Assembly (NCBI GenBank): GCA_016124895.1
Contig: WGMU01000019.1
Location: forward strand, 124,001 to 188,000
Direction of reading: 5' to 3'
Length of the DNA: 64,000 nt
DNA from: a bacterium
Lineage (GTDB): Bacteria > Planctomycetota > Planctomycetia > Planctomycetales > Planctomycetaceae
The notes under the pieces were generated by a model. The model did no database searches and was not told the DNA's origin. It saw nothing but the letters and a program-made list of their open reading frames with translations. Position numbers and translations under genes: made by a program. Every line of letters starts with the position of its first letter. Position 1 is the stretch's first letter. This document shows, piece by piece, positions 60,759-62,276 of this stretch.

Positions 60759-61031
60759 ATGGCTCAGGCAATTGTCGATCCCATTCAGCTCCGCCAGTTC
60801 GCTCAGACGCTGAAGAAATTCAACGAGAACCTCATCGAACAGTCGACGGCCCTGGCCAGTCAGCTCGCCACGCTGAGCAACACCTGGCGCGACCAGGAAA
60901 ACAAGAAGTTCTGCGAGCAGTTTGAAGGCCACATGCGACTGCTCGCCCGGTTCATCGAATCCAACAATGAGCACATCCCCTACCTGCTGCGCAAGGCCGA
61001 GCACATCGAGGAATACCTGCAGCAGCGCTGA
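60759..61031 (+). CDS. WXG100-like small helical protein
   Basis: A 90-residue protein of two long helices with a central turn. It has W43 in the turn, but the following residues are R-D, so the W-x-G motif is replaced by W-R-D. Length, helical hairpin pattern and LSNTWRDQENKKF fit the WXG100/ESAT-6-like superfamily, whose members are exported by type VII secretion in Gram-positive bacteria. No EccC/EssC ATPase is in the window, so the export route is unknown. GAGG precedes ATG 60759. It heads a tight three-gene set with a membrane protein and a coiled-coil protein. Confidence 0.8.
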   Translation: MAQAIVDPIQLRQFAQTLKKFNENLIEQSTALASQLATLSNTWRDQENKKFCEQFEGHMRLLARFIESNNEHIPYLLRKAEHIEEYLQQR

Positions 61032-61049
61032 CCGACTGCGAGGTGTTCT

Positions 61050-61760
61050 GTGAGTCGCCGACCGGTTTCGATCTGGATCAGAGAACGCCTCAAAAGAGCC
61101 CGCTGGCTGACGCTGGCCGGAGCCGTTGGGCTGATTCTCGCCACAGTTGTTGCCTCTATTTACTCGTGGAGCCTGATCCACCAGATGGTTGACTTCTTCA
61201 ACGTATTCGTCTTCTCGGGTAATCCGATTCCGGCGGCGGTGGTGACTTCGATCATTCTGTTGAGTCTGTTTGCCTGGGAGCTTGCTTCAACCTGGCGACG
61301 CTCCAGCGCGTTGGAGCTGGATGGGCATGAAGTCTCGTTTTTCGATGGTCTACTGGTCGAATCCGCCAGCTATGGTTCGTCTTACGGGGCGTTCATGATG
61401 AGGCGGAAAATACTCTATCTGGCGATTGTTTTCTGGATCGTCTTTCTCGCGCCTCGGCTGCTGTGTCTGTCTCTGATGCTGCTTCGACGGTTTCTCGCAC
61501 TCAAACGGCTCGACGACAACACCGCAGAACGAGTCATCGCAACAATGATGAAAGGCGAATTCAGGTTGACGCTCGCTGAAATCCGCGAGCGGTTTCAGCC
61601 GGCTTCGGAGACCGAGCTGATCGGTGGCTTGACGGCGCTCGACGGTGTTGTGCTGATCGGAGCAGAAACGGAATCTCCCGCATTGACGGTCGCTCCGCGG
61701 CTGACTGAGGATTACAAAGACTGGCTGGCTGCTCGAAAGGAGCGGCAGGCTGCCCTCTGA
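61050..61760 (+). CDS. Membrane protein of the WXG100-like gene set
   Basis: A 236-residue protein starting at GTG 61050 with GAGGT upstream. Three hydrophobic segments are seen: about residues 19-40 (WLTLAGAVGLILATVVASIY), 60-78 (AAVVTSIILLSLFAWELA) and 117-142 (ILYLAIVFWIVFLAPRLLCL). The last 90 residues are soluble and could form a small winged-helix-like domain (RVIATMMKGEFRLTLAEIRERF). No family was recognised. It begins 18 bases after the WXG100-like gene and ends 15 bases before the coiled-coil gene, so the three are surely co-transcribed. Confidence 0.85.
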   Translation: MSRRPVSIWIRERLKRARWLTLAGAVGLILATVVASIYSWSLIHQMVDFFNVFVFSGNPIPAAVVTSIILLSLFAWELASTWRRSSALELDGHEVSFFDGLLVESASYGSSYGAFMMRRKILYLAIVFWIVFLAPRLLCLSLMLLRRFLALKRLDDNTAERVIATMMKGEFRLTLAEIRERFQPASETELIGGLTALDGVVLIGAETESPALTVAPRLTEDYKDWLAARKERQAAL

Positions 61761-61775
61761 ATTCGGACGCTCGTC

Positions 61776-62276
61776 ATGGCTGGTGCCAATGTCAAATCGA
61801 TCGAGGCGATCCGTAACTTCCGCGTTGCGCTGATCAGATTCACCGAGAAAGTGGCGGACGCCGTCGAGTCCATGAAGGACCAGGTGTTCCACGCCGTTTC
61901 CTGGGTCGAACTCGAACAGCCGCGGCACTGGCATCAGCAGGAGCTGACGGCGTATGACCGCGTCTCGGAAGCCAGAATTCAGCTCGAAGTCTCGAAGATG
62001 CGAAAGGAAACTGCTGACTTTCGGCCGTCGCTGATCGAGGAAAAACAGGCTCTGCGGGCCGCGAAGCGACGTCTCGAATACTGCCGGCAGAAAGTGCAGC
62101 TTGTTAAAGCGGCGGCGTTCAAAGTGCGACACGAAGCCGACGAATTCCAGGGTCGCCTGGGTCAGGTCGACCAGGTGCTGGAAACCGACCTGCCGAACAT
62201 GATCGCCATGCTTGAGAGAATGCTCACCGCGCTGGAAGCTTACGCGGAAGTGTCGACAAAGGACGTCGACGAGTAA
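61776..62276 (+). CDS. Coiled-coil protein of the WXG100-like gene set
   Basis: A 166-residue, almost entirely helical protein with no signal peptide. The central part (AYDRVSEARIQLEVSKMRKETADF, then EEKQALRAAKRRLEYCRQKVQ) has heptad-like spacing of hydrophobic residues; the ends are charged. It has the look of a WXG/LXG-type chaperone or scaffold, though no family could be named. It lies 15 bases after the membrane-protein gene and 43 bases before pdxH. Confidence 0.83.
   Translation: MAGANVKSIEAIRNFRVALIRFTEKVADAVESMKDQVFHAVSWVELEQPRHWHQQELTAYDRVSEARIQLEVSKMRKETADFRPSLIEEKQALRAAKRRLEYCRQKVQLVKAAAFKVRHEADEFQGRLGQVDQVLETDLPNMIAMLERMLTALEAYAEVSTKDVDE

Follow-up and report, generated by a model that had tools for sequence, protein, structure and literature searches.

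Introduction

In most descriptions, type VII secretion belongs to Gram-positive bacteria. Planctomycetota and Verrucomicrobiota are bacteria with an outer membrane. A WxG protein together with an FtsK protein has been described as a minimal type VII set, and HP0062/HP0066 were named as an example (PMC4978471). The gene for HP0062 is located near an FtsK/SpoIIIE gene (PMC3397514, PMC4978471). In its structure, HP0062 forms an antiparallel hairpin dimer in which WRD replaces WxG, and the protein was likened to the ESAT-6 family regardless (PMC3397514).

Another described relative is the module of the CoCoNuT loci. It contains an EssC-like ATPase with three domains, of which only the middle one is active; this ATPase has a long N-terminal coiled coil and no membrane helices (Bell et al. 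2024, PMC11090510). The module also possesses two WXG100 proteins, one of them without WxG, and a coiled-coil-nuclease protein (PMC11090510). For the CoCoNuT-linked ATPases, which are without membrane helices, a different mechanism was proposed by the authors (PMC11090510). Stand-alone versions of the module were reported by Anantharaman et al. 2012, as cited in PMC11090510.

Here we analyzed a planctomycete locus in a window of 64,000 nucleotides, the term window referring to the whole stretch of DNA that was analyzed. Two of its genes, A and C, belong with two genes on another contig, D and E, to a set that is a stand-alone, toxin-less, membrane-anchored variant of the known, little-studied WXG100-FtsK module. 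In the open-access papers searched, none on A-C-D-E in planctomycetes was found, and an earlier mention in subscription papers is possible.

Results

Three Genes in the Window

The following three open reading frames were reproduced with the sizes and the spacing given in the first-pass annotation. The gap between A and B is 18 bases, and that between B and C is 15 bases.

60759-61031, + strand: gene A, 90-aa WXG100 protein with W43-R44-D45 (PF06013, PDB profile matches, 26-member alignment)
61050-61760, + strand: gene B, 236-aa three-helix membrane protein with a GTG start (hydropathy)
61776-62276, + strand: gene C, coiled-coil protein of 166 aa, predicted as a long helical hairpin (AF2 model, position after A in relatives)

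The dN/dS values against the congener were 0.06 for A, 0.29 for B and 0.06 for C; the value for gene E (see below) was 0.11. Since A and C were recovered in dozens of genomes and dN/dS is far below 1 for all three, A, B and C are real genes. Judged from these ratios, A, C and E are under purifying selection.

Gene A Encodes a WXG100 Protein

The A protein matched PF06013 with 31.7 bits (E 1.9e-7; Pfam cut-off 27.3) and is the sole match to this family in its own genome. All of the 26 A relatives also matched PF06013 (E <= 0.01). In the alignment, W43 and D45 are invariant, and the motif is W-R-D or W-Q-D in 26/26 sequences, so that aspartate stands in the place of the glycine of WxG. Thus, the earlier assignment of A as a WXG100-like protein with Arg-Asp after W43 (...SNTW43-R44-D45-QEN...) was confirmed, the Pfam cut-off being passed. 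In the search of the A profile against PDB, the protein was most like Helicobacter pylori HP0062 (3fx7, 1.4e-9), followed by EsxB (1.3e-6) and Staphylococcus aureus EsxA (4e-5). Full-length homology at the profile level was found to the solved hairpins 3fx7 and 2vrz.

The YxxxD/E export signal was missing from A in the sequence and the alignment: the residue four positions after Y75 is K79, and that after Y86 is R90. Y86 is invariant in the 26-member alignment. Full-length homologues of A with 46-98% identity were detected in 41/59 relatives, the own genome included. The identity is still about 50% between phyla, and A differs in that from many exported effectors.

Two other properties of A were considered and set aside. 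The CAI of A is 0.84, above the 90th percentile of the 36 window ORFs, but ribosomal genes are not elevated by this measure in the genome, so that codon usage carries no information on the expression of A. The low synonymous divergence from the congener (7/34 fourfold sites) was not repeated against other genera.

Genes D and E on Another Contig

An FtsK-like ATPase, which WXG100 proteins normally need, had been noted as absent. This holds for the window but not for the genome: the search for an EccC/EssC ATPase elsewhere led to gene E on contig C90, where it stands together with a second small gene.

Contig C90, 32056-32295: gene D, 79-aa second small WxD protein
Contig C90, 32347-36861: gene E, 1504-aa EccC/EssC-like ATPase, together with D

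W-x-D is invariant in D, as in A. Comparison of D with A by hhalign over 37 columns gave P 5.4e-5 with a probability of 67%, and 4/27 D members reached PF06013 (E <= 0.1). On these values, D is likely a second WXG100-like hairpin, with less certainty than A.

The E protein consists of a coiled coil, two membrane helices, another coiled coil, a DUF-like domain and two FtsK-like domains. Its P-loop (GKTGSGKS) is present only in the middle domain; the DUF-like domain and the last FtsK-like domain are without one. A single Walker A of the GKTGSGKS type in the middle domain was found in 36/36 PVC E proteins, and at least two hydrophobic helices were found in the N-terminal part of 33 of these. The FtsK/SpoIIIE domain scored 120.2 bits in the own copy and 112.8 bits in the copy of another genome (G024). 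With NCBIfam, the EssC/EccC models gave 8e-32 to 2e-29 versus 1e-5 for FtsK. Because these scores are under the NCBIfam equivalog cut-offs, E is a relative of EccC and EssC and not one of them itself.

The structural model of E spans residues 431-1504, with three domains modelled. It aligned with the entire cytoplasmic part of EccC (4nh0_B; Z 22.9 at rmsd 13.6 for 733 residues), with ATPases 2-3 of EccC (4n1a; Z 23.3 at rmsd 7.0 for 487 residues), and with the DUF domain of EccC5 (8rin; Z 15.9 at rmsd 4.0 for 230 residues). The motor domain aligned with FtsK over 262 residues (Z 25.2, rmsd 2.9). Taken by sequence and modelled fold, E is predicted to be a membrane-anchored ATPase of the EccC/EssC type.

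Other Type VII Parts

YukC/EssB (PF10140) was not found in the genome, and the Bacillus subtilis control was positive. An LXG effector was also not found. EccB (PF05108) was unmatched in the genome, as it was in the controls.

The proteins might instead form a non-secretory intracellular machine, in which A/D dimers and C serve as clamps or regulators of E, and E moves DNA or remodels the membrane or the division site like other FtsK-HerA ATPases. The good alignment of the E motor with FtsK, the very strong conservation of A, the mostly vertical inheritance of E (see below), and the failure to find a secretion signal and other T7SS parts are in accord with this. However, by sequence E groups with EccC/EssC and not with FtsK, and a probable canonical FtsK is encoded separately in the own genome (G000:C108). 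Moreover, the sequence of A makes it a WXG100 protein, and E has an EccC-like DUF domain. We therefore consider an intracellular machine rather unlikely, and retain a type VII-like system as the preferred reading.

Co-inheritance of A, C, D and E

Planctomycetota: Of 343 genomes drawn, 48 carried A and 48 carried E; both genes were present in 46. The four mismatches are the incomplete genomes G328, G344, G270 and G382 (61-87% complete). Among the 181 good genomes (completeness >= 90%, contamination <= 5%), the carriers of A and E are identical, namely the same 26. The naive Fisher p for the association is 4e-52, with kinship ignored. A long E was detected in 10/10 tested A carriers, and a short FtsK-like match at most in 12/12 tested non-carriers. 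C occurred in 42/43 A-carrying genomes (as a single copy in 40 and as two copies in 2) and in 0/5 non-carriers; the counts for D were the same, 42/43 and 0/5. The sole A carrier without C and D is G163, which is 86% complete.

Gene order: C lies directly 3' of A in 23/30 relatives' loci, and B intervenes in the window and its congener. In the longer loci, the order A-C-D-E was observed in 13/20. The genes are also inherited together where they are unlinked. In the single-contig genome G005, A (2.50 Mb), C-D (4.30 Mb) and E (5.92 Mb) occupy three separate places; A-C-D and E lie at 4.23 and 3.51 Mb in G019 and at 2.77 and 2.29 Mb in G355, both again single contigs. In G029, A, C, D and E are on four separate contigs. 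This co-inheritance without linkage speaks for a joint function of the four proteins, beyond mere neighbourhood of their genes.

Wider distribution: Named relatives with the same operon belong to Isosphaeraceae, Gemmataceae and related lineages; among Verrucomicrobiota, Haloferula luteola (strain YC6886) is an example. Of the cultivated planctomycetes, Zavarzinella formosa DSM 19928 possesses A, C, D and E. A quick tree of E placed the five Verrucomicrobiota sequences in a single group and those of the own family in a different one, and the plasmid branches were long. Thus, the spread was apparently mainly vertical with losses.

Second sets: In two genomes of family f2, a second C-D-E set accompanies a single A (L202 1947-7127 in G050; L203 6050-10857 in G058). 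One A may therefore serve two ATPases.

Gene B

The predicted three-helix membrane protein is supported by three hydrophobic segments in the hydropathy profile of B (19-37, 60-78 and 121-139). B was found in only 8/59 relatives, repeatedly on a different contig from that of A, and its association with A among the relatives was not significant (Fisher p 0.41). On these values, B was rejected as a core part. In all genomes searched, B stands at the A-C locus in this genus only. The B homologues (L100-L105) belong to a small, fast-evolving family of planctomycete membrane proteins, which are solitary among unrelated genes; the C-terminal region of the family is conserved, and no Pfam match was obtained.

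The first-pass annotation had treated A, B and C as the unit and had offered a conserved envelope device as one of its roles. If A, B and C were such a working three-gene device and D-E unrelated to it, the tight spacing of the genes and the same order in one congener would be explained. However, most A carriers have no B, and G014 has B without A, C, D and E; B evolves fast, and the genes that are co-inherited are A, C, D and E. We regard a three-gene device as very improbable. The conserved co-occurring trio gives way to the unit A, C, D, E, in which B, to judge from its occurrence, is probably a passenger inserted between A and C and no working part of the system. What stands of the compact type VII-like set is a WXG100 protein in a type VII-like system; the stripped-down three-gene makeup does not stand, D and E being on contig C90.

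Gene C Encodes a Predicted Helical Hairpin

In the AF2 model of C (mean pLDDT 90.8), one long helix spans residues 7-79 and a second one residues 87-165, in agreement with the coiled coil proposed for it. No domain beyond the coiled coil was detected in C, and toxin fusions of C were not seen elsewhere in planctomycetes. The fold search returned common coiled-coil resemblances only (best Z 11.5), which have little weight for long helices. The C profile matched the N-terminal coiled coil of a Rhodococcus plasmid protein (3.3e-8), which is encoded in the corresponding gene set there. By this match, C resembles a carrier part without the enzyme. With the coiled-coil proteins of the Helicobacter and Caballeronia plasmids described below, C shares a likeness of layout only.

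Related Modules on Plasmids

Relatives of E were detected in only 5/72,556 plasmid records (1e-20).

Helicobacter plasmid pNHP190012_1 (L168 6740-11142): The genes encode a WXG100 protein, a coiled coil-nuclease, an SMI1/KNR4-family protein, a small protein and an ATPase. The coiled-coil protein carries a colicin-type DNase/WHH domain. Judged by these domains, the set is a candidate nuclease weapon with an immunity protein in a Gram-negative host. Unlike the PVC set, this plasmid has the DNase (WHH) and the SMI1/KNR4-family protein between the WXG100 and ATPase genes, and its ATPase, of 823 aa, is without the membrane-helix pair of the PVC E.

Caballeronia plasmid pSBC2-5 (L166 5513-15496): The module here has a WXG100 protein, a coiled coil with a C-terminal extra part and an ATPase; CARF, VWA, PP2C and kinase genes come next. 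The domains of the genes after the module suggest a TerY-P-like system.

Rhodococcus plasmids (L165, L169): EssC-like ATPases were found here, accompanied by small proteins of helical makeup and by possible enzyme domains. One ATPase adjoins TerD-family genes, and the other Hsp70/GrpE genes.

These relatives bear on a possible role of the planctomycete set in anti-phage defence or in conflict between bacteria, as a stand-alone form of the WXG100/EssC-like piece found in CoCoNuT/TerY-P loci. The TerY-type VWA, PP2C, kinase and CARF genes that adjoin the Caballeronia relative, the colicin-type DNase domain and SMI1/KNR4-family protein of the Helicobacter relative, and the same module in CoCoNuT loci (PMC11090510) are on its side, as is the patchy occurrence in planctomycetes (48/343). 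On the other hand, no nuclease or immunity gene was found within the set in the Planctomycetota and Verrucomicrobiota loci examined. PADLOC had no specific model; it matched E only as a generic ATPase of the FtsK/HerA type, and its coiled-coil matches were weak. The genes next to the set are ordinary and not conserved, the set itself is often dispersed and forms no island, and E follows the host groups. A conflict role is thus improbable, and for the anti-phage module suggested in the first-pass annotation we found no evidence of such a role.

Discussion

Among described systems, Helicobacter HP0062/HP0066 and the CoCoNuT WXG100/EssC-like module come closest to the planctomycete set. Like T7SSa and T7SSb, the planctomycete set combines a WXG100 protein with a membrane-anchored multi-domain FtsK-type ATPase that has an EccC-like DUF. 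Unlike in these systems, E has two FtsK-type domains where they have three, and a P-loop in just one of the two; the coiled coils flank the membrane helices of E, the set is without YukC/EssB or LXG, and the hosts are Gram-negative. The Type III-A CoCoNuT/TerY-P module is similar in having the counterparts of A and D, a coiled-coil C, and a three-domain E with Walker A in the middle domain and an N-terminal coiled coil. It differs in that the PVC E has two membrane helices and C is without a nuclease domain. Furthermore, the PVC set is without TerY, kinase, phosphatase and CARF, its genes are often unlinked, and E follows the host groups.

Secretion by A-C-D-E is predicted as likely. As to the window itself, we somewhat favour the reading that A and C make up half of a membrane-anchored, type VII-like ATPase system with four subunits and a predicted export-type function. 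By analogy with EccC and EssC, E would be hexameric and lie in the cytoplasmic membrane. The A and D hairpins may dimerise, with themselves or with each other, and the A/D dimers would bind the degenerate C-terminal ATPase domain of E. The one active domain of E would hydrolyse ATP and so drive complexes containing A, D and C into the membrane or across it. The C protein may be the exported cargo or an adaptor, since it fills the slot of the coiled-coil-nuclease protein in related systems. Because a toxin domain is absent, a housekeeping or envelope exporter is likelier than a weapon. That A is without YxxxD/E, and that neither YukC/EssB nor LXG effectors were found, are points against export. 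The high identity of A between phyla and the different mechanism proposed for the helix-free CoCoNuT-linked ATPases (PMC11090510) also count against our reading.

We tentatively propose, as a possibility short of our expectation, that Planctomycetota and Verrucomicrobiota own a dedicated type VII-like exporter of four parts, in which two WxD hairpins and a toxin-free coiled-coil cargo would serve the envelope and not warfare, with no Gram-positive accessory parts. The unit is kept in Gram-negative bacteria though it is scattered, and this yields a minimal parts list of two hairpins, a coiled coil and an ATPase. Such a minimal set lets one ask what the WXG100/EccC machine does alone, and whether toxin delivery or housekeeping came first.
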